DNA from: Isoetes taiwanensis
Taxonomy: Eukaryota > Streptophyta > Lycopodiopsida > Isoetales > Isoetaceae
Direction of reading: 5' to 3'
Length of the DNA stretch: 64,000 bases
Assembly: GCA_021234155.1 (NCBI GenBank)
Contig: JAJEKV010000058.1
Coordinates: 3,730,600 to 3,794,599 of the forward strand
Shown: positions 9,651-30,190 of the stretch, in pieces
Layout: the number at the start of each line of letters is the position of its first letter
Position numbering within the stretch: position 1 is the stretch's first letter
Program-made: the position numbers and the translations under genes
Notes under the pieces: model-generated
What the model was told of the DNA's origin: nothing
What the model saw: only the letters and a program-made list of their open reading frames with translations
The model's database searches: none

Positions 9651-9979
9651 CTAAACCATAGCATCAAAATTTCTCGATACCCTTAAAAAATAGCCTTTTG
9701 GCGAACTTTCGTCCTTAAGGGCTACCCTGGTCCCTACTACTGGGATGAAAAAACCCCCACATGGGAGGAAAAACCCTGGTAGTAGGCTCTCAGATCCCTT
9801 GTCCTGTAAGGGATTCTCTGATTGTAGAGACTTGCAAAATGTAGGATGCGAGACACGCAACCATTGGCGATGCCAGCAATTGATGCAGCGGTGCCGTAGA
9901 GCATCTAAGATCAGCATGTGTTGCTCGGATATGCGTATATGCCGGACACTCTTGCAGAGCATGGTGCTCATCCTCTACT
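9651..9979 (-). pseudogene. LINE-D reverse transcriptase, C-terminal half (split by the 18-kb element)
   Basis: Read on the minus strand, this encodes LVEDEHHALQECPAYTHIR and following residues, the histidine/cysteine part of a LINE zinc-binding C-terminus. The preceding part, with RTGSHHLRIETGRW and ERICQCCHMRT, lies at 28056-28520 on the same strand. Joining the two restores the same residue spacing as in the LINE at 63.1 kb (CLVC, three residues, LIEDEAHVFLYC). The halves were therefore one ORF, interrupted by the element at 9980-28051. Confidence 0.75.
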
Positions 9980-10004
9980 AACAAGATTGCGTATTAAACG
10001 GGAG
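9980..10004 (+). repeat. Left terminal inverted repeat of the 18-kb element
   Basis: It begins AACAAGATTGCG and ends TTAAACGGGAG. It matches the reverse complement of 28027-28051 except at positions 7, 12 and 13. It is immediately preceded by TACT, the presumed target duplication. Confidence 0.8.
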
Positions 10005-10360
10005 CAAATCATCGAAACGAGAGCAAAAGGAATATTCCTAAAAGATTCCCTTTTTTACAAAAAAAGGGGGGTAAAATGAGGTTAAAAAAAAAAGTTGCAT
10101 GAAATTCAATTTTGATCCCCCCCTCCCCCCCAAATGACTAGATTTTTTGTGGAACGAAAGAATTGACTTTTTCAAAGTGACACTTTTCAGAGCAAGTAGA
10201 ATGTTCTTGAGTATGTTTTTATAGAGAAACTCTAATTTCAAAGGATAAAATATTTAACAAGAAATTGAAGTAAAGTCTGTAACTGATACTGTAGTATTCT
10301 CAAAATTTGAAGATAAAATCTTCATATTCACATGCAAAATTTACAGTCTTTTTCTAAGAC
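10005..10360. other. Left subterminal region of the element
   Basis: It lies between the left terminal repeat and the stop of the DUF7869-type gene. It contains homopolymer-rich tracts (A runs near 10050 and 10085, C runs near 10120) and no coding signal. It presumably holds the 3' end and polyadenylation region of the minus-strand gene. Confidence 0.4.
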
Positions 10361-13300
10361 TCAATTATGTGCAAAAGTGTGAGGAGTGATGAAGGAGGGA
10401 TCCAGAACGTCATCATGTTCATTTATGCCATCCTCATCTCCTTCACTTCTTTCGCTATCACTAAAGGAAGTGCTTGAGTTGTCTTCCTCATCACTATCAA
10501 CAGATGGTGAAGCATTGCCACCACCACTCCCTTCTTCATCCTCTTCCTCGTAATTACAAGCCTTTTTAAGCAAATTGATAGTTCTCTGGCGCAGACGATT
10601 GTCAGATTTCAATTTGAAATCGTAGCATAATATAGTCACATCACTTAAGTTCAGCTCGTCCCTACAACCCACTTTCTTAGACTTCCTCCCCTTTCCTTGA
10701 GTTCTCATTTCTAACTCATACCTACCTTCAAAAGCATTTTCTGAACGTGTGGCCAGCCAATGAATCTTGAGTTTAGTTACTAAGCCTTCCGCCTTTGATC
10801 GTATCAAGAACTTTTGCTATCCAAAAGGCCGACCTTTGTCATCTTTCTCGGTTGGAAGAGCAATCAAAGATACCTTTAGCTATTTACGTGATACTCATTT
10901 TAAGCGTCTTGGTCCGAGGTACATGACTGGGTCCTCTTCTTCCTCTCTGCCGGGTGCTATTGCAAAGATGACTTAGACCTGCCACGGTTTCGGGATTGAT
11001 GGAAGGTATCGGGCCATTGAAATGGTTCTTGCAACTGTCTTAGAGCTAGATGTTCCAAGACATCCTTCTGGTCAAGAAAAAAATTTCTCCACCACATCTG
11101 ATCTTCTTCTGAGAAGTACTTGAAGCCAGAGTAAATGTCATTTTCAATGGCTTTTAAGGATGTCAATGGGGTACTTTTCTTCTGTTTGGACTCCTTAGGA
11201 TTTTTGAGAGGTAGTTGCTCAGCACGCTCTATGAAGCAATGGTCTGGAACAAATTTAAGGAAGTGCAATCCCTCTGGTGGACTCCAATCCTTAGTTGTGG
11301 TGTACTTCTTCCCCTGTAAGAAGCTTTGTCCATCCTTCAAGTAGAACTTAATGTGATATTGAAAGGTAAGATCATTCAACTTGTTCCAGCTAGTTCTCTA
11401 TCTGAACGTTGAGGAAAAACAAACTCTCTAAAGTCAGCAGTCTCTTTAAGAAGCTCGACCACTGGAACAGGAGTGTAAGAATCTTCAATGATTCGAACTA
11501 AAGTAGGAAGACAAAAAGCTTTCTTCCTTCTAAGGCGCACAGAAAATCTGCTGAACATCTGGTCAATCTGATCATGGGTGTGCCCCACAAGTAAAAATCC
11601 GAGCCTTACTTTTCTGAAGATCCTTAGCTCCACTAGCATAGCACAATAAGCAAAGAGTGTTTGATTCTTGTTCTCTCTTGTAGTGTTGTCAAGTTGCAGG
11701 TAGAGCACTGGTGGTAGTTGCTCTTGCTCGCAGAGGACCTTGTTAAGAATTGTAATTGTCAGGTTTGGGTCACCATGCAAGTTTGGATACGTCAAAAATA
11801 CTTTGCACTTTAGACTTCCTTTGAATCCTACAAGGTGGACTTTAACAAAATATTCCTCTGGCACATCTTTTGGAATATTTAGGAAATGGGGTAGAGTTGT
11901 CTTTTTTTGATCCATTCCATCAATTACAATCGACATATATTGCAATGGACGTTCGAGAGCTTTTTTCTGTGCTTGGCCAGCTTTCTTCTCTCTGCTGCTT
12001 GTTGTTCACGATGTCTGGCAAGATTCTGTTGCACAATATCTGTAAAAGAAATTAGGTTAAAATATTCTTTTTATAACAAGTAAGAGGCTGGAGAGCTTGA
12101 GCTTACTTCTTTCGACCTCTGTCTTTGCAGTTTCTCGTTGACTTTTTAACTCTGCACATCTTGAGCAAACAGACGTTCTATGTCTTCTTGGAATTTTTAC
12201 CAGGCCAAATTCACTCTTCCACAATCTAGTGAAGTGTGAGTAAGAGATGTGCTGAAACTGAATGCAAGTCTCTTTGTATTCTTTGAAGACATCCTTTTTT
12301 GTAATATTGTCTGTCAGATGATACATGTTGCTATTAGGCAACTTCTCACATGTCTCTCTAAAATATTTCTCCATCCATGTCACAGCAGCCAGGGCATGCA
12401 TGGTCACAACTCTTCTTGGACCACAATGATCATCAATTGCTGGATTTTTGTCCAGTCTTTTGTGTATTCGAGACATTCTTGTGGACCCTAAACGGTGGAC
12501 AACCATGAATCATTTTTGGCAGACTTGTTCACGGTTAACGTAGTGCAAGAATGTGTTGCAGTCTGGTGTTACATGAGTAGGCATTCTGGTCAGCCAATGT
12601 CATTGAACTGTAGTTGTCTCTAACTGCTCGTAATTTAGCCATGTTAAATCTGTTTGATGCAACCCAATGAGCAGCATTTAGTTCTCAAGAGTCTCCTCAT
12701 TTTGTGTACATCCATAAGGTTTCTTCTTCTTACAGAGGAGCATGCTCTCAAACTCTTTGAAGATTGGCCGGAGAACATGTAATCTCGTTGTTCCTCGTTG
12801 GTGTCTTCATCGTCTGATGAAACTTCTACTCTAGGGGTGACTTCCTCAGTCCTGAGTGGTGTGTTTGTAGAGGAAAACAGGCCACGTGAAGTTGTTCCCG
12901 GAAAAGGCGGTAGCATAGTGTTAAAGGATGGTGATGGCCCATAAGAGGTTGTGGCTGCAGCAGTTCTTGTACCCTCCTAAGAAGGAGTTCTTGCAAACAT
13001 ATCCTTTAGAGCGGACTGGAATTCTGCAAATCCATGTGTCACAACCATTGTATTACAAGGAGTACATGCTGCAGCATCGTCTTCATTTGTAGTGAAGTCC
13101 CGGGGACGTAAATTGTAGTGAATCTCACGCCTTCTTACGGTTCCTTGTGTACTTGCACGAAGGGGGGTGAAACTACAAACGGTGGGGGTAGCTTGTTCTT
13201 GAGCACTCGTTGTGGTGGAGCCTCTGTAGGTCCGGGGGATGGAACAAAGGGTGGTGGCAGCATGCTCCGAACTGGAGGTGATGCTTTGGAAGGAGATGCG

Positions 13301-13488
13301 AGTGCACTGTTTATTGGACTTGGTGACGGTTGGAAGGGTGGTGGTAGTCCGTTACGTCTTTGGACTAGGAGTGTCTTGAAAAGCAACAACGATGTTGTAG
13401 AGGTAGGCGCGTCGGAGAATGCGGGTCTTTCAAGAAAATGCGTTGCTCCCAGCCGTTTCTTCAAACTAGACGAAGCTTGAGACAACAA
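10361..13488 (-). pseudogene. DUF7869-type DDE-like protein (candidate transposase), disrupted
   Basis: Read on the minus strand from about 13488. First is a proline-rich start with repeated LPPPF, then a short second segment (12916-12644) with an acidic run and LRTKCCSLGC. Next is a segment (12560-12100) with RMSRIHKRLDKNPAIDDHCG, YSHFTRLWKSEFG and VCSRCAELKSQR. An intron with GTAAGC and TTTTACAG ends follows (about 12110-12020). The core at 11945-11376 has IVIDGMDQKKTTLPHF, VLYLQLDNTTRENKN and VGHTHDQIDQMFSR. These match the DUF7869 pattern, and the spaced Asp residues suggest a DDE-type nuclease fold (inference). A C-terminal part (to 10957) and an acidic tail (to 10361) end it. A stop near 12513 and frameshifts near 12560 and 11380 disable it. 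As the element's only DDE-like gene it is the likely transposase. Confidence 0.72.
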
Positions 13489-14170
13489 AAGGTGCCGGAA
13501 GTTTGTTCACGGGCGGTTCGGTCATCTTGACAACCCCTGAAAATAGTGTAGAGATTTGAGAAACTTTCTAGATTGCAGACCTTTTCTTATTCCCGAATAC
13601 AAGTTCACGTAGTACAAGTGGACGTTGCTGTAACAAATAAGTAAAAGGCAAACTAAAAGCTATTCCGGAATACACTGGACTAGAACAGTAAAGCTAAACG
13701 ATTCCACTTCACATAGAATACTGGAAGCAAGACTAAAGGGATACGCTTAAAAGGAAATAATGGCACCCTCGGCCATGATTCCGGTTTCGAGCTCAAGTCA
13801 AGCGGCGCCAAATACTCGAATATTATATTCAGAGACTGTATTCCGATTCGCATAGAGAAGACATGGACAGGTGAGTAAAAAGTACAACGTACAATCATTT
13901 CTTAGTGTGTTTCTTATTCCGGAATAGGTTTTGGTTTTCTTCTGGAGGCCAAAGTGTATTCCGGAATACAATTTAGGTGGTTTTTTTGTAAAAATATTGC
14001 AAATTTAAGAAAAAGTAGCTTGCTTTTAACACTTCCTAGACGATAAAAAAACCTTTAGAGGGGCTTAAATTTGTGTTGTTTTAGTAAAAAAAGTCCAATT
14101 GTTATTCCAGAATATGTTTTTGTGTTGTTTTCATCCTCTAAATTTGGGTTTTGTCTTAAATATATTACAG
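13489..14170. promoter_or_regulatory. Divergent control region with repeated palindromes
   Basis: It separates the minus-strand DUF7869-type gene from the plus-strand genes. It holds palindromic or near-palindromic copies of TATTCCGGAATA: 13588-13600 (degenerate), 13661-13672, 13838-13850 (half site), 13915-13926, 13957-13968 (extended to GTGTATTCCGGAATACA) and 14103-14114 (TATTCCAGAATA). A splice-acceptor-like TATTACAG ends at 14170. A shared promoter and 5' introns are inferred from position. Whether the palindromes bind a protein is unknown. Confidence 0.55.
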
Positions 14171-14953
14171 ACACGACGGTAGCAAGAAAGCTTCTCGTAA
14201 GCCAATAAAGTTAAAGACAAAGTCACACCCACAGGCAAGTGTACCACCCACAGAAGAACCCATCGTGGTAACTAAAATTTTCGCATTAATGCTGGTTTAT
14301 CACAAGGGGAACGGAGGAAAGTACAAAGACACTTACTTTCCTCCACGCTCAGAACCGCCCTCGAGGAAAGCTCTATACCGACCGACTTTTATTTGCATGG
14401 GATTAATAAGAGCAAGTCGAAGTGGTGGGCGGCCGTGACAACAGGGAAGGCTCTCGTTCAAGACATCCCAAGAATATATTGTTGTGGACCAGGGCTATTT
14501 TAGGCTTGGTAGAGTGACACCTTCAGCTTTGTACAAGTACGTGACGCATTACATAAACAAGCTGAGGTTGTGGGAAATCATAAACAGAGTGCAATCCACA
14601 CAAAGCGAGGATTTTGCACACAGCGCCTCCGAAGATGAGAGAGTGGTGGAGGACAATGCCGGTGATGGCTCCAGTCAGGAAGAAGAGGACGGAAGTCCCA
14701 GTACATCAGAGGAGCATCAAAGATTGAGCGGCTTAAGAGGCAATCAAGGCGGCAAAAGAGCCGAAGAAACGCAAAGTGCAGGAGATTGTAGTACAGGAAA
14801 TTCCTGAGGAGCAGCCAAAGAAGAAGAAGGGAAAGGGCAAGGCACCCGGGGTTGCCATTAAGGAAAAGAAGGTGGACAAGACATCGGAGAGGATGGAAGA
14901 AATAAACCAAAAGAAATATGTGCAAGGTGTGATTTACTTGCCAAGAATCCCAT
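14171..14953 (+). pseudogene. Unknown element-encoded protein with acidic stretch and PKKRKV motif
   Basis: I do not recognise a family. An exon seems to open after an acceptor (TATTACAG) at 14171. The first part is basic (DGSKKASRKPIKLKTKSH), followed by YHKGNGGKYKDTYFPPRSEP. A frame change near 14410 leads to KWWAAVTTGKALVQDIPRIY, and another to FRLGRVTPSALYKYVTHYIN. An acidic Ser/Glu-rich stretch (about 14620-14730) follows. The end is lysine-rich, with PKKRKV at 14761-14778, identical to the classical monopartite nuclear-localisation consensus, then KKKKGKGK. It stops at 14953. Shared orientation with the ParB-like and methyltransferase genes suggests one transcription unit. It could be a DNA-binding accessory protein (inference). 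Confidence 0.45.
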
Positions 14954-15007
14954 GAGGTTGCCACCAAAAAATGAAGATGGTGAACGCCCTTCGTGTTCTG
15001 AAAATAT

Positions 15008-15140
15008 ATGTCAATTCAATTTAAGGAACCCAAGGATAGAATAAGGAGCAATCCCAATGCCCACGTTGCTCCAATTGTCGTTCTTGTTGACAGAACCCAA
15101 TGCATGGACCCCAAGGACTACGACAGGGAAAATGCAGACA
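15008..15140 (+). pseudogene. ParB-like nuclease-domain protein, 5' part (split by LINE-B)
   Basis: From the ATG at 15008 the frame reads MSIQFKEPKDRIRSNPNAHV, then APIVVLVDRTQCMDPKDY. This fits the start of the ParB/Srx-like fold, where a P-x-x-x-I-R-x-N-P element precedes a PIVV strand. The frame stops making sense at 15140, the end of a 12-bp sequence (AAAATGCAGACA, 15129-15140) that recurs at 21698-21709 after a LINE poly(A) tail. The codon interrupted at 15140 is completed at 21710. The gene was therefore one ORF before the LINE arrived. Confidence 0.7.
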
Positions 15141-16706
15141 GGGACCATAACATCATCTTCAGACAAGCAAATGAAAATCAAGGTTCTAAACAAAGGGGTC
15201 TTCATCAAGGAAGATCGACCTTTAGTTTGCCAGGATAAACCAATTCTGGAAACAAAACAGACTACTGAGATGGCAAAAATAAATAAAGCAAACATTGAGC
15301 ACAACAGGTATATGCTAAAAGGGAAAGGTAAATCCTCAGTTTTGCCCCCAAAAGTTGACTTGCATAAGACTCTTTCAAACATTATGAAGGATTCCAGGCA
15401 ATCTATCAGTCAACAACCATTATCAATCAAAGGATTTGCTGTTACTGAGAGAATCAAAACTACCTCACATGGTTTGAATGGGGTTTCATTACTTAATGAA
15501 AAAGGTACACATCTCAAAGAAAAGGACAAAGAAAAGGGCAAGCAGGTTACAACATCATCAACTGAGATTTCAACTGAGATTTCTCCAGCTCCAGTCAAGG
15601 TTCCACAGCACCAACATACCTTGGTCCACCAAGAAATCGAACTTGCTGAACCTGCTGAAGAGTATGAGGAGCTACTTGATACACTAAAAGTATCAAATTC
15701 ATTTGCCATTCTTGCAGATATGCCAGAAGATCCTGATGCTAATAAAACTGCAGATGAAAATTGTATTGGTCCCACTGAGCTAACCATTGAGCCAACCTCT
15801 CTTCTCTCTCATCCTGAAAACACACCTACAAATACATCCATCACATCCATCACACATCCCATCCAAAACATTACATTACCATTTGAAACTGCACTTGATC
15901 CCCCCCTCTTACATGTTGACCTCTCTGAAACTACTGAATTATCCTTGCCCCCTAGTAAGAATGCAGCCATTTCCCCAATGATAACTCAACAATTGCAGGA
16001 ATTGATGACAGCCATTGAGGTATTGCCAGATCCTTCTAAACAGATGTCAGTGGCCACAAATGATAGGGATGAACAGATCAGAAATATCTCAGACAGTTGG
16101 GAACACAATTTGCTGCATACAGAACATGAGCACACAATAGCAACAGCAGAAGCATGTGATCAGCACCAATCAGAGGAAAAAACAGGAAACAATGCAAACT
16201 CCACCCTACATCATATGAGATCCTCAGAGTCACCATGCTTGGAACAAGCTACTACCAGGCAAGATCTTTCCATTCTAAAAGTTGCAGATAATTTGTTACT
16301 TAACTGCTCTAATGTGGATAATAATATGGATAATGTTGATAATAATGTAATTACCCCCACAAACTTCACTGATTCTTCCTTATCTGAGAATGTAGTCCAT
16401 GAATGTTGCAAATCCAAATTCTGGCAGTGCTCTCACTCTGACATAATAGCTAAAGAAAACAACTTTGCAGAACCTCACTCTGACAAGGAAAATGCCCCTG
16501 ATCTTCATATTCCAAACATTGATAACTTATGGGATGGAGATTTTTATTTGCTTGCTCATCAAAACAGTCCTACTGTTGACCACCCAAAAAATCAATCCTC
16601 CAAAAGAAATAGGAAGAAAAAGGGGAAAAGCATTCTTGGCCAAATCCAAAACACACCTGCAGCCAATACTCGACAAAAAACCAAAAGGGCTAGCAGATTC
16701 CACTAG
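15141..16706 (+). pseudogene. LINE-B ORF1, C-terminal part
   Basis: The open frame runs unbroken to 16706, but its upstream start (15057) lies in the host gene, so the true LINE part begins at 15141. The protein is polar and low in complexity, rich in Ser, Thr, Asn, His and Glu, with a basic end (SSKRNRKKKGKSILG). The DUF4283 and zinc-knuckle parts expected near the N-terminus are absent because the element is 5'-truncated. It ends 34 bases before the ATG of ORF2 at 16741. Confidence 0.65.
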
Positions 16707-16740
16707 CTATCTCTAATATTGCCTTATCCTTTCTTTCTCC

Positions 16741-19700
16741 ATGAAGATTCTCAGTTGGAATCTCAGGGGTATCAAAGGCCCTTTAAAAAGAAGAAGGGCT
16801 ATCTCCCAGATCAGAAGTTATGATGCAGATATCATTCTTCTTCAGGAGCTTAGACTTCCTAGCTTTGAATGCTCAAATTTAGCAGATTGGATTGGCCCTG
16901 GCTTTTCTTCTACTTGGATTGAGGCCAATGGTACCTCTGGTGGCCTTTGCATTATTTGGAGACATCTTACACATAGCTATGTTCACACTAGCCCTTGCAG
17001 GTCCTGGCAATCTGTCATCTACAAACACAATGATTTTAGCTTTGGAATTATAAACATTTATGCTTCCACTGATTCAAGAATTAGAGCTAACACTTGGCCC
17101 ATGGTTAGCAATTTTATTACATCTCAGGACTGTGACACTTGGATCATGGCAGGGGACTTTAATAACACACCTACTTGGGATATGAAGATGGGTAAAAGCA
17201 TGTTAGGGTGTGCCTTAAAAAGTATCATTTAGGGACTAAAAAGGTACCCAAAAAGGTAGCTAGCTCTGGGTACTGGGTACTTTTGTAATATCTCAATAAA
17301 AGCTACGTTTTAGAATTGTTGTATTTATTTTGGCTTCCAATAACATTACTTTTATCTTAACGTTGAATATTAACATGACAATGACTTTTATTTTGGATTT
17401 TTGAGTTAGTTTTAATGAAAAGAAAATTAAAAAGTACCCAATTCTAAAGTACCTAGTGTATGTACTTTTGCAGGTTCCAAAAGTGGTACACCCTAACATG
17501 CTTTCACCCAGATAGGAAAAAATCTTAACATGTCATCTGAAGAGATTTTACAGTGGGATCAAATGCTTGATATGCATTTCTTTCAGCATATCCCCTCCTC
17601 TACCTCTGCCTACACTTGGTCCAATAAGCAAGATGGAAACAGCAGGGTATATTGTGCTCTGGACAGGTTCTACATAAACAACACTCATAATGATATTTGG
17701 AATAACTGTTTGGTTAGCAGTGATGAGTGCACATCTATATCTGACCACCAGCCTCAATTCTTTACTATCAACTACACTTTATCTGTTAAGAGGAATGGCA
17801 ATACCCCTTTTAAGCTCAATTGCTCCCTTCTTGACTCTGATACTTTCTGCAAAGATTTCATTGCCTTCTATGGAACTCTCCCCCAAGTTAGATCCACAAA
17901 TTCCATGAAATCCTTTTATACCAACATAAAAGACTCCAAGAACTGGATCAAACAGTGGTCGAAGAATTTACATGAAAGCAAGCAAGCAGAGAAAAGTGCC
18001 TATCTTAAAGAAATGAAAGAGGTAAGAATGAAGTTGCAAGAGGACCCCCTTAATGTTGAGCTTCATTGGCAAGAAGGTAATCTAGAAAGGGTTATCAAAA
18101 CAATTGAAGAGATGGAAGCAAAAGGTGCATCCATCAGATGCAAAATCAAGTATCTTTCCAACATGGATCATGGAAATTCCAAGTTCTTCTACAGAGTTGC
18201 CAAATCCAGACTTTTAAAGAGTCAACTAACCACTGTCAAAGATGAAAATGGTACTATCTACTCAGATCAAAAAGAAATTTCCAATTTCTTTTGCTCCAAT
18301 TATGAGAAATTTTTCTCCCAACCAGTAGACAGCTCTGTGCAAATTGTTGAAGCCAAATCTTTTACTGATCTCATTGAAAATAATGGTCTCCATAGTGATC
18401 TGATCATGACCCCCTCTACAGATGCTATCCCTACTGCTGAAGAGATTTTCTCAACCCTCAAGAGTCTTGCCAAAGGCAAAAGCCCTGGCCCTGATGGTCT
18501 TCCACCCGAATTCTACATTAGATTCTGGGATACTATTAAAAATGATTTTATGCACATGATTAAGGGTTTTTGGAATTCCAACCATCTGCATCCTGCTCTT
18601 TCTTCTGGCCTTATCACTTTAATACCTAAAGTTGACAATCCCCAGTCCTTTTCAGACTGGAGACCTATCTCTTTAACAAACTCCACTTATAAGGTTTGTG
18701 CTAAGATTATAGCTAACAGGGTAAAAGCTCATCTTCAAGAGATCATCAGTCAGAATCAATCTGCTTTCCTCCCAAACAGATACATCCTAGATAATTACAT
18801 TGCAGCCATGGAAGGAATGCACTGGAACAATCTAACTAAACAAAATTGTATTTTATTGAAGTTAGATTTTTCAAAAGCCTTCGACACTGTTAGGTGGAAC
18901 TTCTTAGAATTCTCCCTGCAAAAATTGGGCTTTAGTGAAAAAATTATCAAGCTTATTTTGGGATTAAATTCTAGATCCCAATCAACTGTTCTTGTGAATG
19001 GCTCCCCTGGATATTTCTTCCCTCTGGCCCGAGGTGTCAGACAAGGTTGCCCCCTAGCCCCTTATCTCTTTCTCGGGTCAGAATAGATGCTCACTAGAGT
19101 GATTATACATCAACAATCTGTGGGGAGCATAGTTGGTCTGAATCTTCCTGATAATACTTCCAACCTTTCCATTCTGCAATATGCAGATGATTCCTTCAGC
19201 TTTCTCAAGAATGAGTCAGGCATCATTGCCAACTTCTTGAACACAATTCACATCTTTGGAGCACCCGATTCATCTCAACAGAACAAATGCACTATCATTG
19301 AGATTTAGATGTTGATAGTATTGCTGGCATCAAGTGCATCAAATCAACTGAGACAACCAACCTTTTGGGTATGCCATTGTCCCTCAATCCCAGTCTCAAA
19401 GGATTATGGACACCTATTGTCTCCAGAATCAGAAAAAAGCTAGGCAATTATGGCAATTGTCTTTTTCTTTGTGCGTAATCATAATTGCTAATTTCGTTTC
19501 TTGTTTGCCTCTCACATTCACTACTCTTACGCGCCCTTTTAGCTCCAAAATGTATCTATCAACAAATTGAGAGAATTGTTAGAAACTTCATCTGGAAGAA
19601 ACACCATATGGTTAACTGGAATACTATTACCAGAAACAAGAAGCAGGGTGGCATAGGATGCAAAAACTTGGCTCTGCAGGGATATGCTTTGGCTGGAAAA

Positions 19701-20832
19701 TATATTTGGAAATCCCTGTTTTTGCATAATAATCCAGCCACAATTTTTATCAATTACTGGCTTTCATGCAGTCATCCTAAAGGACATCCTTCTATCAGTC
19801 ATGATTTGCCTTCTTCAGCTTTCACAACTCTGAAACCTGCACCAAACATATCTCCTCTTATGAAAGGCATCATCCTGGCCTGGAACAAAGTTCACATCAA
19901 CTTTGAACATTCAAGCACTCAAAATAGCCACTCGAGCACAAGCATTTTTTGGAATCCTAATCTTTCCAGAGATAATAGTACTCCTTTGGCTATTAAGCAT
20001 CCTAAGTTATACAAAAAGTGGACAGACTATGGTATTTCTAAGCTAGGTGATTTATGGGTTCAAACAAGATGAATGTCCTGGACAAATCTGAAAAATAAGA
20101 TTAGAGGCAGCTCATCTGATAAGCTATTGTTTAGATTTATCAGGCAAAAACTTAGCAACATCAATCTCTTTGACAGTCCTGTCACTAATGACTGGTTAAT
20201 TATGGGTAAGCCTCAATATAGTGTTTCCAAAGTCTACACCTGTTTAAATACGCCACACCAGACCTCCAAATCTAAACTTTATTGGGGTCTCACAGATGAT
20301 TATGAAAAAAGGCTTTTTAGAAATATTTGGAACTCATACTTGCCACCAAAGATTTCCTATTTCATTTGGTTAATTGCCAACAAGAGCTTGCCAAACATGG
20401 AATTTATCAAATCCTGTGCATCCCAGCTGCCCTCTTGGTTGCAATAATGTTGAAACTCTAGAACATATCTTTGGCTGTGCTATTCTAAATTCTTTCTGGA
20501 GGTGGTTTGAATTTACTTTCAATATCACTTGTCCTGCTACTTTGCTTGAGTTCCTGATGAATGATGATGCATTTAAGAATTCCTTGTGTTACATTGCTTT
20601 GTGGAATGTATGGAAACATAGAAATAGATGTCAGTATGGTGGAAAGACAATTTCTATATTCTGGATTAAATCTCAAGTTATCTATGACATAGAATTGGTT
20701 GCAACAAGTCAGATACACCAACATAAAGATTTCTTAGATTCTTTGGACAATAAATGGTTAAGCATTGGCAATTTCTTTGGTGCATATAAAATATTTAAGC
20801 TACATTGTCATGAATCTCTTACTGACACTTAA
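16741..20832 (+). pseudogene. LINE-B ORF2: APE endonuclease, reverse transcriptase, zinc-binding domain
   Basis: The start KILSWNLRGIKG opens the endonuclease, followed by LQELRLP, then IMAGDFNN at 17145-17168. A MITE interrupts at 17190-17509. The frame resumes with ISDHQPQF (about 17740). RT motifs follow: GKSPGPDGLPPEFY, LITLIPKVDNP, DWRPISLTN, KLDFSKAFDTVRWNF, GVRQGCPLAPYLF, then ILQYADDSFSF near 19180. An in-frame TAG at 19084-19086 lies between the last two, and a TGA at 20070-20072 lies later. Frameshifts occur near 19300 and 20400. The end has GCNNVETLEHIFGC, a zf-RVT-like motif. Family assignment is certain and function is lost. Confidence 0.92.
17190..17509. mobile_element. 320-bp MITE inside the LINE-B endonuclease
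   Basis: Both ends share an inverted repeat of about 25 bp (GGGTAAAAGCATGTTAGGGT at the left; the right end carries its complement with one early change). The flanks are AGAT (17186-17189 and 17510-17513). Removing the insert with one AGAT restores the LINE reading frame, WDMK into IGKN. It has no coding capacity, and the middle is AT-rich. The superfamily is unclear from a 4-bp duplication. Confidence 0.8.
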
Positions 20833-20955
20833 TTTGTTACTGGTAGATTACATGAGGAGCCTAAGTAGGGACATTGGCACTTCTGTTGAGCCTGCAGAGT
20901 ACAGAATGTTCCTAGGACAGAGGCTAGTTCATGACATACAGTATACATATGACAT

Positions 20956-21309
20956 GTGGGACGTGTCCTGGGTCGGGGCATCACTGACATTGACATACCA
21001 AATATCCCGGATGATGAACTTGATTGGGCTATGGAATTTTGCAGAAGCACATACCTCATGGTGCAACTATGGTGGTTTATGGAATGTAATAGCAGAAGAA
21101 TGACTGATCAACAGTTTGAGAATTACAGAGAATGCTATTACCACTACAGGGGTTTGGCAGATGCATATGGAACACTAATCATTCTAATGTCCACCACAAA
21201 TGCAGATAGGCTGATTATTGAGTTGAATTGGGGAAATGGCCGCACTCTTATCCTCCAACCTCAGTTCCAAGCTCACTTTGATTATCTCAGCTCTTACCAC
21301 TTCCATTGA
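20956..21309 (+). CDS. Unrecognised 117-codon frame in the LINE-B 3' region
   Basis: It lies between the end of ORF2 and the poly(A) tail. The translation begins MGRVLGRGITDIDIPNIPDD and continues with LDWAMEFCRSTYLMVQLWWF and an Asn/Tyr-rich middle. No known LINE domain is apparent. RNase H motifs are absent. It may be a third ORF of this LINE lineage, a captured fragment, or a chance open frame in a 3' untranslated region. It has no stop over 354 bases, whereas neighbouring LINE sequence is broken. Confidence 0.3.
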   Translation: MGRVLGRGITDIDIPNIPDDELDWAMEFCRSTYLMVQLWWFMECNSRRMTDQQFENYRECYYHYRGLADAYGTLIILMSTTNADRLIIELNWGNGRTLILQPQFQAHFDYLSSYHFH

Positions 21310-21674
21310 CATCCCTATTCTCTTCCTTTCCTTTGATCTGCACCTCACCTTTTGGACCACATACTGATCTTCATATATTTGCAGTATTTCATTAGCATTT
21401 AATCTATTTTGCAGGAATTCATTTTGGACTGGTCTTTGACTGGTTAAGGCTGATGTTGCTGAACTTTTTCAACAATGTTCTTCTCAGTTGCAGTAAAACA
21501 AACTTACCAGCTACTAATAAGGCTGAGTAATATTTTGGATATTACTATGTGCTTCTCACAGCACTTATCTTATTTTTATTTATCTATTTGCTTTTCTATG
21601 AGTGGCCTACTTATAAAGGCTCACTCAGTATGTTGTACCTTTTTCTATAATTAATGAAAAAAACCCCATTCACT

Positions 21675-21700
21675 AAAAAAAAAAAAAAAAAAAAAAAAAA
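21675..21700 (+). repeat. Poly(A) tail of LINE-B
   Basis: A run of A residues follows CCCCATTCACT and runs directly into the target duplication ATGCAGACA. It marks the 3' end of the retrotransposon. Confidence 0.9.
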
Positions 21701-21709
21701 ATGCAGACA

Positions 21710-22096
21710 CTTATATGCACTATGTCCTTGGGGGTAACCACAGTTTTAAAGCAAGGAGGCAGTTGTACAAGGAGAAAAACAACCCGAGATATCTCTCTGT
21801 GCTCTGCGCTGTTTACTGCGGCCTAACAGATGAAGAAGCGAAGATAGTTGCCAACACGCATAATACTGACAACGAATATAAGCTTACAATGAGCTTCGTG
21901 GACAAAATCAGGTTCATGCATAGGGAATATATTATATTCAAAGAAAAATATGGAGAAGATTTAAAGAAACCAGCATACTCTCTTGAACTAAAGGAAGCGT
22001 GTCGTGGAGTCTTCACCTCAAGTATGACGAGGCTAACAAAAGGCAGTCTCTCATACCACATGACAACGGGTTTCAACTAGCCTTCGAGAACGGCAG
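21710..22096 (+). pseudogene. ParB-like nuclease-domain protein, 3' part
   Basis: This continues the gene begun at 15008. The first residues, YMHYVLGGNHSFKARRQLY, match the ParB signature in which a GG-N/E-H/R motif precedes a helix with A-x-x-x-L. The helical downstream part has LSVLCAVYCGLTDEEAKIVA and TMSFVDKIRFMHREYIIF. The long frame stops at 22080. A shift just before it would read NGFQLAFENGR into a splice donor (GTAAGT at 22097). No HTH of a classical ParB was seen, so the link to chromosome partition is by domain only. ParB-like domains can be nucleases or CTPases. The role here is inferred to be DNA-directed. Confidence 0.65.
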
Positions 22097-22704
22097 AGTA
22101 AGTTTCTTTTGTATTCTGGAATAGGCCTGAAACCCTCCCATCGACATCGCCACATCAGCAGATATAGGACCACGCAAAATGAAATATTTAGCATGTTTGA
22201 ACGTGGAACTCGAAAAGTAAAAGGAAAGACAAATTTGAAAAGAAAAGGGTTTCGGCGTCCCTAAGAAGGAAATGACCATAAGCGTGAAGAGAAATGGGGG
22301 CTTTTTACTGACCTCGACATACCGAAAGGCTACCGCGTAGAAGGTTGTGGACAAAGAATTCACGCTTTGAAGAAATGTCCAAGGAGCCTGCACAAGTAAG
22401 AACTACGAGAACATTCTTTCCAGTTTTTTCTTAAGTTGGGCGTAGTGTATTCGAATACACTTTGTCTTCTTGTGGAAGCCAATGTGTATTCGGAATACAC
22501 TTTGGGTTTGCACGCCATTAAAGCCAATGTGTATTCGGAATACACTTTGGCTTGCACGCCATTACAACCAATGTGTATTAGGAATACACTTTGTGTAGAA
22601 ACTTTGAGAAGCGTGTTCCAGAATACCTTACCTCCTGTCGAGATGTTTCTTCTTTATGTTTTCCTTCTTAGTTAACTTTCTTCTAATGTGGTTTTGTTTT
22701 ACAG
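22097..22704 (+). other. Probable intron carrying the palindrome cluster
   Basis: It starts with a donor-like GTAAGT after ENGR and ends with TTTTACAG at 22704. It contains one TATTCTGGAATA near the donor (22112-22123) and a tandem array of related palindromes (22445-22626). The sequence in between shows no other coding signal. Confidence 0.4.
22445..22626. repeat. Five tandem palindromes of about 42-bp period
   Basis: The palindromes are GTGTATTCGAATACAC (22445-22460), GTGTATTCGGAATACAC (22484-22500 and 22529-22545), GTGTATTAGGAATACAC (22573-22589) and GTGTTCCAGAATAC (22613-22626). Spacer units share TTTG, TTGCACGCCATTA and CCAAT. Steps are 39, 45, 44 and 40 bp. The palindromic core is conserved while the centre base varies, as expected for sites read by a symmetric binder. 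Confidence 0.85.
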
Positions 22705-23033
22705 CCAGAAAAATGTCATCACATGTCAAACATGTTTGATGGAACAACTTAATGTTGACAGTTGGGACAGATGTAAAGAACTTTACCCCATCGCAACCCC
22801 GGATTTAAAGGATAGTTCAATATGCTCCCAATTTTGAAGAATTTGGGTATCTTTGAAGAGTTTTTGCCTTTTCGTTTCTCGTGTTACAAAGACGATCTTT
22901 TTTGCAGAGTAAAAAGAAAAATAAGGACCTGCCGGAGGGCTTCATGCATCTTGTCGGGCCGGTAGCGTGAAGAGAGGACGCTATGACAAAAGGTGTTTTG
23001 GACAATGAGCCCTCCGTAATTTAACGTTTTACA
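22705..23033 (+). other. Stretch between the intron and methyltransferase exon 1
   Basis: An exon-like piece may follow the acceptor at 22704 (KNVITCQTCLMEQLNVDSWD in one frame), but frames break quickly. No family is recognised. It may encode the linker between the ParB-like and methyltransferase parts if they form one protein. That cannot be decided from this decayed copy. Confidence 0.3.
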
Positions 23034-23392
23034 ATGTTTGATCAAAACAACCTTTACTGTATAGTACATGGTGATTGCACCAAACTGGCCGAAACAATAA
23101 AGCCCCAAGATTTTACCTTGGTAGTAACTGACCTTCCTTATGGATTCAAGCTCAAAGACAGCAGCTACGACGACCAGCCATTTAAAAACTCTGAGTTTAA
23201 TGCTTTCGTCGACGGCATAAAGCAGATTACCACGGCAAAACATTGGAGGTTGGTTGTATTTCACTCAAGCATGCAATCCGGCCTTGTGGAAGCTGGTTTC
23301 AAGAATCATTTTGGTTCCCCTACGCAAGCTGGTTATGAAAACATGGTTTGGTAAGCACTTATTCTGGAATACATATGTCCTTTTATCTTTTT

Positions 23393-23578
23393 GGGAAAAA
23401 CTCCAGATTACCCTTATGTTTTGACTTATTTTCCCACATACCCCTGACTTTTCAAATATTAATTGAATCCCACATATTATACATTGTACATTGACCAGGG
23501 CCATTCCATTAATATTTGAAAAGTTAGGGGTATGTGGGAAAATAAGTCAAAACATAAGGGTAATCTGGAGTTTTTCCC
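23393..23578. mobile_element. 186-bp foldback MITE, Mutator-like
   Basis: The ends form nearly perfect inverted repeats of about 76 bp, beginning GGGAAAAACTCCAGATTACC. It is the same family as the 1.16-kb element at 26736-27897. No clear 9-bp target duplication is present here (TATCTTTTT against TTTTAAATT), so one flank may have eroded or the copy may derive from recombination. It sits in the methyltransferase intron. Confidence 0.75.
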
Positions 23579-25377
23579 TTTTAAATTAAGGGTGAAATCA
23601 CACTTACGGCCGCCCGTCCGTTTAATTTTTTTTTGCCCAATCACAGGTCTCCATTTTGCGATTCTGGGCACCCCCCCTATCACACTGGGTGCCCTAAACG
23701 TGGGCAGGGTTCAGATTCCTGGTCGGGGGATAGGGTCCGCCCAAGATCTTGGGCATCACACAGGTCAGCACCGGAGTCCAGTTTGGCAACAAAATTATCT
23801 TCGACCTCGTGGCGGGATCGGGAACTGGATCAGCGAATAGAAGAAGCGAGCACAGGTGCGTTGCTGCAATTGAGAATGAATTGTTCTTTTTGCATACGAT
23901 TTGTTCTTCCGCTTGGCAAATACAAAAGATCTTTGTCCAACTCATGTATAAACCGTTGCAACCTTTTTTATTTTCTTCAAAGCTTTTGCAATTGAGAGCT
24001 CTTGCCATTGTTCTTTTTCTTTTATGAAATTGTTGTTCTTCCAGCCCAATGCACATCATCGGATCATGCATGAAGCCTGCAAACTTTTTGTTTTTCGGTG
24101 CAAGATTTCAGACAGGTGGAATGGCGAGCTTATAGTCAATCTAAGATCTTTTGCTTGGGATTTAGCAAGGCTTGTAAATGAAGGACATAATCCTAGCTCC
24201 AAGAAGCAAAGACGATGGTTAAATGCTTGCTTGTTGCGATGTCACGTGTATGGTTTTAGTAATCGATTAGCAAAACCCATGAATGTGTATCTGCATTCTT
24301 GCGAGTTATTTCAATGCTCATGCTTATTTCTACATGGTGATCATGATGTTTTTCTTATTTCTTTTCCGTTATGTCTTCGTTAAAAGCCGCAGACAATCCG
24401 ATTCTTCAATAGCACTTGCAGTGCAAAGGTAAAAACGTGTCATATGGTTCTTGGACTCACAAGCATAAGATTGTTAAATCATTTAATTGTTCAACCATTT
24501 CATAAGCTATCTATATTGACCAGCTCCCCTAAAAAATGAAAGTGAAATAACAAAAAGAGAACCAAGCACGTCAACCTGAGTGGACACCATCCTAAGCTAG
24601 TTCAACTTTATACCATGTAAAGAGCTCGATGCAAAGATTCGACTGTAGGCGGGAATGAAAGGCAAAGAAGGCAAAGATCAAGAATTAAGGAATGACAAGC
24701 GAAGATAAAGGATTAAGGAATGACTTGCATTAAAGTGCAAAGCAGCATGGATCCAGAATGATTGCTTCAAGAATCTGCCTCAAAAAGGCCTGATGCAACA
24801 TTCGACCAAAGAAGGCAGAGGTTAAGGGATGCACTGGCACTAAAGAGCAAAGTAGAACAGACCAAATGATTGCTTCAAAAATTTTCCTCAAACTTAGAGC
24901 AAAAGAACAGAGAATGCCAAACAATCTGCAATAAAAACTCCATGCACAGGTTCTCCCTCAAACTTAAACCAAAACAACAGAGAAGCCAAACAATTTGCAA
25001 CAAAAACTCCATGCACAGGTGCTCTTCAATTAACATCCAAAGGCCAACAAAGATCAACTACATACAAATGACACCCAATGTACTCCACAACAAGCGGTGA
25101 ATTCAACTTACATAAGAATTGTTCATTTGGCTGCACAAACATAGGCACTAAGAAAACTAGCTCTTTTTTTGGAAAGTACCCGTAAAACCTTCAAATTTGT
25201 ACGCTAATGTCGTGATATATCCTCCAGTAGGCATCGCTATTGTGCAGGGACCATTTTATGTAGCAAGAAGTACCGTGCAACACAAAAGTACTGTGCAGCA
25301 AGAAGTACCGTGCATCAGCCTTTGAGTTAAAGCCATTTTTTCACATTGATGAACAGCTTGTGATCAGCATCAGCCAT
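23579..25377. other. Intron filler of unknown origin
   Basis: This is part of the swollen methyltransferase intron. One frame near 23790-23880 resembles a methyltransferase motif I (see rejected items). The frame at 24024-24383 has no recognised family. A short tandem repeat of about 70 bp lies at 24906-25021. The rest appears to be old transposon sequence, since it ends at a PIF/Harbinger fragment. Confidence 0.4.
24906..25021. repeat. Imperfect tandem repeat, period about 70 bp
   Basis: Two copies begin AACAGAGAA and contain CAAACAATYTGCAAYAAAAA followed by CTCCATGCACAGGT. The copies differ by a few substitutions and a short indel. Confidence 0.65.
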
Positions 25378-25779
25378 TCAGCTTTTACAAAATTCTGAAT
25401 GTCCTGCAATGTACAAGAGCTTGCAATCTAAAAAGAGTAACAGAGAAAAACATAACATAACAATACGAAAAGCTTTAATTTGCATGGCTAGTCTGGTCAG
25501 AGCTATCATCACTTTCCTTTCCACTGGGATAGCCAACCTAAAACATGTATCTTGTTTCATCAACATTGGGCCCAGTGTGGTGCATAAATATTCAAATGTA
25601 TCTCTAGAAACACACAACCTCTTCTTAAATTGATTCTTATGGTATGTGTTCTGCAACATTAAGTCTAATCCAGGGCCTCTATTATATGCCCACAACCTTC
25701 TTTTTGTGTTCCTGCAAATAATTTGGGGTATAATTTGGGATCTGTATTCCACAAGAAGTTCTTTTCCTTTTAGTAACAC
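25378..25779 (-). pseudogene. PIF/Harbinger transposase N-terminal fragment
   Basis: The minus-strand frame contains FKKRLCVSRDTFEYLCTTLG, then MLMKQDTCFRLAIPVERKVMIALTRLA. This pattern is typical of the region ahead of the DDE domain in plant PIF/Harbinger transposases. The catalytic DDE part is missing and the C-terminal 40 residues look unrelated. It lies inside the methyltransferase intron, upstream of its acceptor, and is a nested scrap rather than an element gene. Confidence 0.65.
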
Positions 25780-26530
25780 CTGCGAGCATTGTTAGGAGTT
25801 TCTATTCTGGAATACGTTTCTTTCGGCTGTACTTAAATCCTCTTTTATTTTTTTGTTCTTAAGGTACAAAATAAATATAAATTACCATGGCGGAGGGCCT
25901 AGACTGTTGAGTAAAGTCGAATATCTCCACGTCGCTTATTGGAGTTTTGATGGGAAACGTACAATGGAACACTTCAACACAGCAGCATGCCAGAACTTTT
26001 CGAACGTGTTGGAGTTTCCAGCGGTTTTGCAGAAGCTGCAGGACCCTAGTGCACAAGGAAGAATAGTGAATCACTATCGAAGCCACGGTTGATTAACCAT
26101 CTTCCGGACATGTTCTCACGCCCAGAGATTGGATGCTCGACGATTTTCTCGGCTCGTACAACAACTATTGCTTGTGCACTTAAGAAGGGTCGTGAATCGG
26201 TAGCAATTGATATTGATAAGGAGGTCGCCGGGTTTCATTAAAATGAGACTTTCTGCTTTACCAACTCTACCAGACGAGAATCAAGAGTTGGGGGCAAAGT
26301 CTAATTCTGATTTTGCTAAGATGACATCTTCGGAAATACAGCCTCCCTTTACAAGCTCCTTGGATGACGAAGCTACTTTTGCAGAGTTGAAAGAAGTAGC
26401 TCTTTGCCGCCATATCGAATCAACCATCATTAATCGGAAGCCTAAGTCGCCAGAAAACGGTGAGAAGATAGAAACCGACCAAGCAGAGAGCAGTAAGAAA
26501 AATGAAGAAGACTACAATTTAGATCTCTGA

Positions 26531-26735
26531 CGGACCTTTTGCTGTGGTTACTGACTGATATTTATTATTGATTGCCATTACTGATGTAACACAAAAACAG
26601 TAAAGAAATTATTATTGTTATTTTTACTAAATTTGTGTTTTTTGTACATCCACCTACAAATAATTTTGTACTCATGTCTCAATTGTGCTATTTTCACGTG
26701 CTTCACTCCAAAAAACGAAAGTCGTGTTTAAAAAA
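26531..26735. other. 3' flank of the methyltransferase gene
   Basis: AT-rich sequence after the stop at 26530, presumably the 3' untranslated region. It ends in TTTAAAAAA, the 9-bp target duplication of the next insertion. Confidence 0.4.
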
Positions 26736-27897
26736 GGGAAAAACTCCAGATTACCCTTATGTTTTGACTTATTTTCCCACATACCCCTAACTTTTCAAAT
26801 ATTAATGGAATGGCCCTGGTCAATGTACAATGTATAATGTAGTTTTGATAATTGTTAACATACCCTTATGTTTTGACATAATTTCTCAAATACCCTTATG
26901 TTTCCTTCGAATTCACAAAATACCCTTGATGCCTCTAACGTGTGTTTTATTTCAAATTTCAAACTTGCAGCTCCATAGAAATACCCTTGCAGCTCCATAG
27001 AAAAGTCTGTGGCAAAAGTCTTTGGCAAAAATCCTCTAGTAAGTCTGAGCTTACTGTGGCTGGAGTGGCTTTAGAGTAGGAATGAATCCGTGGCTGAAAT
27101 CAATTGGCAAAATCCGAGTTGGCTGTGTAAAATCCGAGCTTACTGTGGCAAATTCCGAGCTTACTCTTGCTGGAGCGGCTATATAGCAAGAGCAAAATCC
27201 GTCCTTTCGTGCTGGAGCAAAATCCGAGCTGGAGCGGCAAATCTGTGGGAAATAAGAAACAAAATCAGAATCATTGGCAAAATCCGAGCTTACTGTGGAA
27301 AATTCCAAGCTTACTCTTGCTGGAGCGGCTTTATAGCAGGAGCAAAATCCGTCCTTTCGTGCTGGAGCAAAATCCGAGCTGGAGTGGCATGCAATTTCTA
27401 TGAAAAAGGAATCGGTTTTCGCGGGAGGTAAGAATCAATTCGTTCTTTGTGACAAAAGAAATGGATTTGCGGACAAAGAGATCGGCTTTTGTCTTTGAAG
27501 AGATCGATTCGTTCTTCGCTTTTCTTTGAAGAGATCGCTGTGACAAAAGAAACGGATCGCTGCTGCTCCAATAGAACCCTAACACCAACTCTAATTCCTT
27601 GCTCTGTAGCACCAAAAAAAGCAACCACCGAAAATGTTGTAGCACCGAAAAAAGCAACCACCGAAAATGTTGTAGCACCGAAAAAGCCCACGAACATGCT
27701 GTAGCATAAGCTTTTTCTAGAATTTGGCGGGAGCGGAAACGAACCGCTTCCCAAAAGGGCATTTGAAGAAATACGAAAAAATGGAGGGCATCTTGTGATA
27801 AACCAAAAACTGACCAGGGGCATTCAATTAATATTTTAAAAGTCAGGGGTATGTGGGAAAATAAGTCAAAACATAAGGGTAATCTGGAGTTTTTCCC
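26736..27897. mobile_element. 1.16-kb Mutator-like element with long inverted repeats
   Basis: The terminal inverted repeats of about 85-90 bp begin GGGAAAAACTCCAGATTACC. The flanks are perfect 9-bp duplications TTTAAAAAA (26727-26735 and 27898-27906), the Mutator hallmark. The interior has two copies of a roughly 190-bp block with repeated GCAAAATCCGAGCT (27090-27390), and three 33-bp repeats beginning GTAGCACC at 27606, 27639 and 27672. No transposase is present, so it is non-autonomous. It shares its ends with the MITE at 23393. Confidence 0.88.
27606..27704 (+). repeat. 33-bp tandem repeat inside the Mutator-like element
   Basis: Three copies of a unit starting GTAGCACCGAAAAAAGCAAC step by 33 bp and keep an open frame (an 11-residue unit VAPKKATTENV). 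No family is recognised. Confidence 0.75.
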
Positions 27898-28026
27898 TTT
27901 AAAAAATACCCCAAAAATAGGCCCAAAAAAAAGCTGATACTCCTGAAACTTTAAACCTCTCTTAAAAAAGCCCACTTTTTAAAATGACGTGTTTTTTCTA
28001 AAGGAATCTTTAAAACGGCTGCAACA

Positions 28027-28051
28027 CTCCCGTTTAATTTGCAACCTTGTT
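28027..28051 (-). repeat. Right terminal inverted repeat of the 18-kb element
   Basis: Read on the minus strand it begins AACAAGGTTGC and ends TTAAACGGGAG. It is followed on the plus strand by TATT, the partner of TACT at the left end. Confidence 0.8.
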
Positions 28052-28055
28052 TATT

Positions 28056-28520
28056 GTCCGCATGTGGCAACACTGGCATATTCTCTCATGCCGGGGGATT
28101 CTCTGCCCTCCATCTATAGTCCAACGACCTGTTTCAATTCTGAGATGATGGGATCCCGTCCTCACGGAGGCAATAGCTCTCCGTTTCTTCATAGATATAT
28201 GCACTTTCAAGTACTGGTATGGGCCATGTTCCAGTGTTGGATTAATTTCGTGTGGTAGTGCTCTGTTTTAGGCTTTGCACGAGTGGCTGCATCCCACAGA
28301 GTGGTGGCAAAGCGCTCATTCAGGTGTGCAGCCTGTCCCTGGGCATCAGGCATAGCCACAATCTGCTGGTAGTCTATAGACCACGTTGCGAACCACCCCT
28401 AACAGTGCTCCTGCCATACCCTCTTCAGTCGTTGTGGCTCTTGTGCCAATAACAAAGCCTTCGGGGAAAGACGTTGTGCATCCATGTTGATGACCTTGTG
28501 GAAATATGCAAGATGTCTGC
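28056..28520 (-). pseudogene. LINE-D reverse transcriptase, upstream half
   Basis: The minus strand encodes NPTLEHGPYQYLKVHISMKK, then RTGSHHLRIETGRW, PRHERICQCCHMRT, ending at the element border. The LINE at 62916-64000 has the same pattern (RTSSHRLRVETGRW, KDERYCLVC), so this is the same family. The rest of the zinc-binding domain lies at 9651-9979. A further upstream frame near 28270-28520 probably belongs to it. Confidence 0.72.
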
Positions 28521-29879
28521 GCATAGCTTTGGAGAAAGAATGAATTGGAAAAAGATCAAGCAGTTCTGGTTCAGCTTTTTGATGCTGAAGTTGATGATGT
28601 AAGAAAGGAATATTCTGAATAACATGGACTGTACATATCATGGTGAGTGTGTCATATACTCATACCATGGTGAGCAAATCATATCATTAAGTTGAGCCCT
28701 GAAATTGGCGCAGGCTTTCCTGATTCTGTGCACAGTTACACAAGGTAACAGACTGTATCAAATGGCTATAAACAACGAAGGCACATATTATGAATTAACA
28801 CTAGACAATGACTCATAATTCCTCGGCCTTTATTAGAGCCATATTTGTAACACTTTCTGATGGTAAGAGTGAGGCAGCTAATGTGTTATCATTGGAGAAT
28901 AAGCAAAACTGCCATTGGACAAATATGATGCAAACACATCTGTTATAAATGGAGGAACCGCAATATCATCCATGTGAAGAAGAGAGAGAATCTCACTTAC
29001 GTCCATTTCTTGAGAATTCTGTTGGACTAATAGATTCCATTTTATAAGGTGCAAGAATAGACACTTAGTTCCAAATGTATGCTTTAGGCTAGTTAAAAAT
29101 TGCCAACTGTATGCAGCATATGCAATGCATCAACTTTCAGGTAATAATGACATTGTTTTTTTACTTGTCTAATCGGCCTATAAATCTAAAGCCTAGGATC
29201 GCTATTTCAGAGACTCAGATGGCAGAAGTGCAGCAGGTGCGGACGATGTTTACGTGATAAAAGCAATCCAACAAAAACTTAGCTATTGACCTGAATTGGG
29301 GCAAAGTCCACCTTCTCGTTGCACAAGCCCTAAGAAAGTTTTTGGCTCGAGGGACTAAACCTTGAGTGTGTAAAAAAACATGATATATAAGTTAGCAAGT
29401 AATAAGGTTATTAACTATCATTTATAATATTCACTGAAATGTCAACAAGAGAAGCAGATATTCTTCAATACAATGCCCATGCAACAATATAGTTTGACAA
29501 AGTATAGAGAAAAGAGAAGAAAGAAAATATACAACAACAATTGCAGATATTAGCAAACTTCTTTTTGCTCAACATTTCATCTATTGAAATGCAAAATAGA
29601 AACAACTACAGCATAAACATTGACATCCAATTGATTCCAAATTGACAAGCATTTCATAAGCATTCACAAACAAACAAATCATTTATAATTTGTAATATTC
29701 GCTGAAATGTCAACAAGAGGAGCAGATATTTTTCAATTCAATATCCATGGAATAGTACAGTTTGAGAAAGTATAGAGAAAAGAGAAGAAAGGAAATATAC
29801 AATAACAATTGCAGATATTAGCAAACTTCTTTTTGCTCAGCATTTCATCTATTGAAATGCAAAATAGAAACAACTACAA

Positions 29880-30190
29880 TATAGAGATTGATACCCAATT
29901 GATTTCAAATTGATGGACATAGAAGTCACTCATAAGAATTTCATGAAATAAACAAAAGGACTAATCCTTCGAGAGCTTTTCAAAAAGTCCCTTTAGACTG
30001 CATCATAGTTCCTTCAACATGATGATTTTCTCCTTCTCATAGCTGCATTTCTTCTTCTCCAGTTTTAAGCTCTCTTCATGAGCCTTTTTATTGAATTCCG
30101 TCATAACATTAACGACCTTTACAACTTCTGTTGTAGCATTCTTAATTTTCTTGGGTTTCTGGGCCACGCAAGTGGGTTTCAATTCAGATT
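29880..30190 (-). pseudogene. Myb/SANT-like unit, copy 2 (tail only)
   Basis: It contains only the C-terminal Lys/Glu-rich coiled-coil-like tail and the LDEVEEID-adjacent end. It is nearly identical to 33950-34260, with both joined to the same downstream sequence (AATTCAGATTATAGTGCTAT). They are products of one duplication. Confidence 0.6.

Follow-up and report, generated by a model that had tools for sequence, protein, structure and literature searches.

A roughly 8-kb DUF7869 transposon, most likely Sola1-like, with a methyltransferase gene that probably has a ParB-like part, in Isoetes taiwanensis

We analyze a 64,000-nucleotide stretch of DNA from the quillwort Isoetes taiwanensis (contig JAJEKV010000058.1 of assembly GCA_021234155.1, positions 3,730,600 to 3,794,599), hereafter the window, and find that its positions 9980-28051 hold a damaged, inactivated member of a multi-copy transposon family. 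We consider it likely that this family consists of DDE-type, Sola1-like cut-and-paste transposons of about 8 kb, present in many copies and carrying a ParB-like/methyltransferase gene next to the transposase. The two genes of the element are divergent: the transposase gene runs leftward from the middle and the ParB-like/methyltransferase gene runs rightward. A sequence-only reading of the window had described the interval as an 18-kb DNA transposon of unfamiliar type with complete borders, and we weigh these claims below against copies found elsewhere in the genome.

The element ends in terminal inverted repeats (TIRs) of 25 bp each, at 9980-10004 (plus strand) and 28027-28051 (minus strand), which pair at 22 of 25 positions (88%); our recomputed pairing reproduces the count first reported. 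We searched the window's own genome (1,658,258,908 bases in 1,110 contigs) with a left probe of 181 bases spanning the left end and a second probe spanning the right end. The first look returned 1,401 candidates on the left and 1,155 on the right, and the best 40 of each were scored, so that the copy number obtained in this way is a lower bound. Among the 39 scored left ends other than the window's own (40 with it), 31 start at window positions 9978-9980 (query 19-21) and the remaining 8 overshoot the border by no more than 9 bp; on the right, 28 of 39 other ends stop at 28051-28053 (query 28-30) and 11 overshoot by no more than 12 bp. Because scored ends elsewhere in the genome stop at the same positions, 9980 and 28051 are the exact borders of the element, and chance is excluded. 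The endpoints of the sequence-only reading are found again, exactly or to within 9 bp and 12 bp, in 39 other left and 39 other right ends. Past these short overshoots, homology running beyond 9980 or 28051 does not occur in the scored copies, nor are the ends unlinked, since four full copies have the interior in common. Just inside the right end only, L061-L064 (the four complete copies introduced below) repeat the inner part of the TIR as a palindrome, AAACGGGAGTG-CTGCAA-CACTCCCGTTT, which the left end does not have; both arms are altered in L064, and in the window we read a remnant adjoining the right TIR at approximately 28012-28037 (plus strand).

Directly outside the TIRs, the window copy is flanked by TACT (9976-9979) and TATT (28052-28055), a target-site duplication (TSD) of 4 bp with one mismatch (3/4 identical). 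We tried to read the TSD of seven other copies and excluded one of them (C1055), whose right end lies outside the 901 bp fetched. In all six copies with both ends readable, the duplication is a perfect 4 bp: AACT, CATT, GAGA and ATAA in L061, L062, L063 and L064, and AAGC and TATT in two further copies. The interpretation of the 4-bp flanks as a TSD, originally made on the window copy, thus holds for the family. We pooled 60 end flanks, 30 from each side, a set that counts both ends of the window copy and of some other copies. Of the 240 duplicated positions, 176 are A or T. With the flanks read outward from the element, C stands before the duplication in 15 of 30 on the left and in 12 of 30 on the right, which hints at a palindromic target, C-NNNN-G. 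The host sequence agrees with these borders. It is a long interspersed nuclear element (LINE) whose halves lie at 9651-9979 and 28056-28520, both on the minus strand, and when the flanks are joined with one TSD removed, a frame stays open across the junction (...ICQCCHMRT-V-EDEHHALQECPAYTHIR) and is colinear with ...YCLVCEQKLIEDEAHVFLYCSAYEEIR in the LINE found at 62.9-63.6 kb. The empty-site argument that had been built on this LINE is upheld.

The length of 18 kb, in contrast to the borders, is wrong: an element of about 8 kb has been lengthened by three nested insertions. We fetched whole the copies whose ends lie 7.5-8.05 kb apart on one contig (L061, L062, L063 and L064, of 8,010, 8,046, 7,476 and 8,037 bp), and they align along their whole length to 9980-28051 minus three window stretches of 6,557, 2,363 and 1,165 bp. 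These secondary insertions total 10,085 of the 18,072 bp and leave 7,987 bp of element in the window. The native element is ~8.0 kb and the 18 kb are the product of later nested insertions; the four complete copies and the three mapped insertions rule out a native size of 18 kb. The first insertion (15141-21697, plus strand) is a LINE with poly-A and a 12-bp duplication, AAAATGCAGACA, within the ParB-coding part of the accessory gene, and its site is empty in L061, L062 and L063. The second (23393-25755), missing from the complete copies, starts with a miniature inverted-repeat transposable element (MITE) having GGGAAAAACTCC ends, and the third (26736-27900), delimited by copy comparison, has inverted ends of the same kind and a probable 9-bp duplication, TTTAAAAAA. 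Together with stops and indels, the three insertions leave the window copy broken.

Since about 10 of the 18 kb are indeed foreign to the element, the interval could be taken for a patchwork of unrelated elements that have matching ends by coincidence and never formed one mobile unit. We regard this as exceedingly improbable: four complete copies elsewhere, with the same two ends, the same interior and perfect TSDs, refute both a composite and chance borders. Two side observations belong to the insertions themselves. A stretch of 107 bp is 100% identical, in inverted orientation, between the two insertions with GGGAAAAACTCC ends (23476-23582 and 26732-26838), while copies of the surrounding element are otherwise ~90-94% alike, and the pair may be very young or converted MITEs. 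A Harbinger identity of the whole element, considered on the basis of an open reading frame (ORF) at 25378-25791, was rejected; this ORF lies mostly inside the second insertion and has no Pfam match.

Having established the native element, we turn to its genes. The transposase gene occupies 10364-13126 on the minus strand, as placed by tblastn of L065 and L064 ORFs and by the ORFs of the window; its start possibly lies as far up as ~13.5 kb, it probably contains one intron near 12.0-12.1 kb, and it carries stops and frameshifts in the window copy. The proposed DDD catalytic core is the Pfam domain DUF7869 (PF25273), found at 11412-11858 on the same strand (E 9.2e-49, residues 50-198 of ORF 11376-12005). 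In the 784-amino-acid frame of L062 the domain is matched at residues 302-491 (E 1.9e-51), with Cys-rich segments before it and a possible small beta domain after it, and, with E values up to 1 allowed, it is the sole Pfam match in the longest transposase ORF. The acidic residues in IDGMD, QLDN and HTHDQID are invariant in six aligned sequences whose subfamilies share 56-98% identity with L062, which suggests a DDD-like pattern. The description of the element as being of unfamiliar type was therefore right in part, and has to be amended in that the transposase is a Pfam DUF7869 protein and the anatomy fits Sola-type elements. Against this assignment of the core we must set the AlphaFold model of the transposase, which is poor (predicted local distance difference test, pLDDT, 42), even if in this part its strands and helices come in an order that fits an RNase H fold. 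A comparison of the transposase with PDB sequences gave no match. A prokaryotic or viral origin was also considered: 160 bacterial/archaeal pattern matches and 48 viral ones yielded no confirmed relative, a negative result that is weak evidence, since each search used two short peptide patterns. DUF7869 gave a hit in 0 of 14 control genomes; those named in the corresponding N6_N4_Mtase search are prokaryotes, and the count says little on eukaryotes. Within a single genome, several DUF7869 subfamilies, ~55-65% identical, coexist (L067, L069, L070 and L077).

The accessory gene, on the plus strand, encodes in order an N-terminal domain with no Pfam match, a segment resembling the N-terminal part of ParB, a linker and, split over two exons, an N6/N4 DNA methyltransferase. 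Copy comparison places its parts in the window at 14160-15139 (N-terminal part, then the beginning of the ParB-like domain), 21700-22121 (remainder of that domain, with weak DUF6551 and TIGR03764 matches), 22102-22386 (linker of unassigned fold), 22845-23351 (methyltransferase exon 1, with the motif IV-like D[LI]PYGF) and 25796-26527 (exon 2, also located by Pfam, frameshifted in the window copy and containing motif I, DAFSGSGTT, in intact copies). Exon 2 of L061 matches N6_N4_Mtase (PF01555) with E 1.5e-17, and the nearest solved chain is CcrM (E 6e-7), which is also among the NCBIfam matches. Motif IV precedes motif I, an order which we take to place the methyltransferase in the beta class; the form D[LI]PYGF of motif IV holds in the family and in two other subfamilies readable in frame.

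A ParB-like domain in the accessory gene is probable. The matches that point to it are weak: two profiles (TIGR03764, E 1.7e-4 and 21 bits, where the cut-off is 143.75; DUF6551, E 0.0015) and five plasmid matches, all five annotated ParB (E 0.03-0.3). When the segment is compared with one plasmid ParB in hhalign, P is 0.0099 but the probability 4.2%. There is no ParB match in PDB searches and no match in the phage search, and its structure model is poor (pLDDT 41) and lends ParB no support. On the methyltransferase side, motif IV is DLPY/DIPY and not DPPY. Nor does a methylation motif stand out at the ends of the element: GATC and GANTC fall below expectation in the element sequence and CATG, GTAC, CCGG and GCATGC above it, and none of the six is concentrated in the terminal 250 bp.

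A scan of the genome for both genes bears on whether they travel together. DUF7869 passes the Pfam cut-off at 150 of 150 scored places (the best 150 of 9,902 first-look candidates) and N6_N4_Mtase likewise at 150 of 150 (the best 150 of 1,443); relatives of the methyltransferase exon are 71-100% identical among the best 150 of 3,509 candidates, the first of which is the query's own place. Combining the 150 best places of each gene, we find 21 divergent transposase/methyltransferase pairs 3-15 kb apart, 18 of them at 5.5-6.2 kb, along with five pairs within 40 kb that do not fit (in two the distance exceeds 15 kb, and in three both genes point the same way). We set aside another linkage count, made on hand-selected places (60 of 150 and 28 of 150), which is biased, the 28 having been picked with pairs already known. 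All three divergent subfamilies tested have retained the pair; their transposases are 51-53% identical in the main alignments and 34-55% in their N-terminal parts; each has accessory coding at the expected place (ParB-like 46-53%, methyltransferase 31-60%, partly frameshifted).

The coding sequences also retain the mark of selection. Pairwise Nei-Gojobori ratios of nonsynonymous to synonymous substitution rates (dN/dS) are 0.243 for the methyltransferase (27 copies) and 0.278 for the transposase (24 copies), averages over non-independent pairs of copies that include neutral decay. The input was 35 names per gene, from which we removed repeats of one place (3 for the methyltransferase, 5 for the transposase) and copies that had no match or whose gaps exceeded 10%. 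In the shifted sense frames the ratio is 0.92-1.01; antisense frame -1 is also low (0.38 and 0.36), as expected since codon third positions coincide. Both genes have clearly been constrained, by purifying selection, during the spread of the family. Nearest-neighbour identity among the scored ends reaches 99.6% on the right and 97.6% on the left, and some copies have therefore moved recently.

How might such an element work? That the DUF7869 protein moves the element by cut and paste has good support, and we hold it to be very probable. In the scheme we propose, this protein, with its Cys-rich N-terminal part and an RNase H-like core bearing the acids of IDGMD, QLDN and HTHDQID, would cut at the TIRs and insert the element by a 4-bp stagger, with a mild preference for AT-rich sites within C-NNNN-G. 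DUF7869 of Pfam would thereby gain a function, that of a transposase. The second protein, combining a ParB-like part with a CcrM-like N6-adenine methyltransferase of beta order, may bind the element or its ends and methylate it, which could mark DNA as competent for transposition, for instance after replication; alternatively, the methylation may counter silencing by the host. The window copy landed in a LINE and was later hit by a LINE and by two elements with GGGAAAAACTCC ends.

The element's own DNA is a plausible target of the putative methyltransferase; how plausible varies with the version of the idea, and we place it somewhat short of probable. More doubtful still is the full proposal that the transposon writes its own N6-methyladenine mark on its copies for self-recognition, for licensing of transposition or for escape from cytosine-methylation silencing. 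If it were true, the quillwort nuclear genome would harbor an adenine-methylation system borne by a transposon, in which at least 150 copies of the methyltransferase gene have been scored. The opposite possibility is that the methyltransferase does nothing for the element and is carried along as a passenger, as might be thought from the many copies broken by indels and stops; its dN/dS of 0.24, as low as that of the transposase, and its presence in the corresponding position in subfamilies whose transposases are ~51-53% identical make this quite improbable. The family is an amplified transposon lineage, probably in a vascular plant, whose methyltransferase gene is constrained like the transposase, and it makes an open question testable: do eukaryotic transposons put marks on their own DNA once they have captured adenine methyltransferases of bacterial type, and would such self-marking aid movement or escape from silencing? 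For the window itself, an apparent 18-kb transposon is corrected to an 8-kb element with nested insertions.

Other features surround the element. Blocks that resemble one another (~78-96% identical), present in several copies, form an array at 28537-40177; 30463-34229 against 35259-39076 is one example, and related blocks lie at 6840-8891. Of this array, Tandem Repeats Finder detects only one part of 268 bp and one of 27 bp. Judged by eye, long intact frames at 41320-43830 and 56137-57882 resemble elongation factor 2 and a BTB/NPH3 protein, and frames of a Copia-type retrotransposon lie on the minus strand at 58185-61135.

Finally, we compare the element with known systems. By its anatomy and shared accessory gene it most likely belongs to the Sola superfamily and is Sola1-like; it counts against this name that it derives from these two features and not from an alignment of transposase sequences. 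PIF/Harbinger, hAT, CACTA/EnSpm and KDZ elements are generally known to have TSDs of lengths other than 4 bp. For MULEs, PMC10741241 gives 7-12 bp, and for mariner TA. We rejected all of these (PIF/Harbinger, hAT, MULE, CACTA/EnSpm, Tc1/mariner and KDZ) on the 4-bp TSD in 6/6 readable copies and on DUF7869 as the sole Pfam match in the longest transposase ORF. Sola elements, as the same source describes them, have a DDD transposase, a 4-bp TSD, a size of 2-9 kb (some above 15 kb) and TIRs of 11-1124 bp, and are found in the moss Physcomitrella and uncommon among flowering plants (PMC10741241). Two other papers report many SOLA elements in Azolla (PMC6786969) and 4-bp TSDs in Dictyostelid Sola2 elements as well (PMC3627910), and because of the latter, TSD length cannot separate Sola1 from Sola2. 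Our element resembles the superfamily in its TSD (6/6 readable copies, 3/4 in the window copy), in TIRs of 25 bp and in a size of 7,476-8,046 bp over four copies, and Sola is reported in moss and ferns (PMC10741241, PMC9033089, PMC6786969, PMC3627910); it differs in the accessory methyltransferase, which lies outside the Sola definition.

One could instead suppose a two-gene transposon of a yet-unnamed superfamily defined by DUF7869, with a Sola-like TSD and an independently captured ParB-methyltransferase gene. No mention of DUF7869 turned up in the papers searched, and the 160 bacterial/archaeal and 48 viral pattern matches yielded no confirmed relatives, which would suit this supposition; the 4-bp TSD, size, TIR length and conserved DDD-like pattern, however, all fit Sola, which is reported in moss and ferns, and we judge a separate superfamily unlikely. 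We recognised no description in the literature searched of the DUF7869/methyltransferase gene pair in land plants, which does not establish its absence from print.

The Sola1-like assignment draws on Sola1-1_Ec32 of the brown alga Ectocarpus, which is 21.5 kb long, carries a ParB-like and N4/N6 methyltransferase gene opposite to the transposase strand and leads its authors to point to green and red algal precedents and to suggest self-binding and self-modification (PMC12477816). An N6/N4 methyltransferase gene on the strand opposite to the transposase, with a ParB-like part that is probable in ours, is common to both elements; they differ in size (21.5 kb against ~8.0 kb) and host (a brown alga against a plant), and we liken them by description, not by sequence. 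The works cited for the algal precedents are reportedly those of Iyer and colleagues and of Petroll and colleagues. Nested insertions, as in the window copy, are described for giant elements in the Ectocarpus paper (PMC12477816). Among bacteria, Bce_0392 of Bacillus cereus is a ParB-methylase fusion (PMC5512222). Bce_0392 and CcrM share with our accessory gene an adenine methylase with a ParB-like domain, the latter probable here, and the motif order IV then I, but are prokaryotic and outside a transposon, whereas here the ParB match is weak and motif IV is D[LI]PY. Set beside these systems, the quillwort element probably adds one more member to a kind of transposon already known, and it carries an interesting accessory gene.

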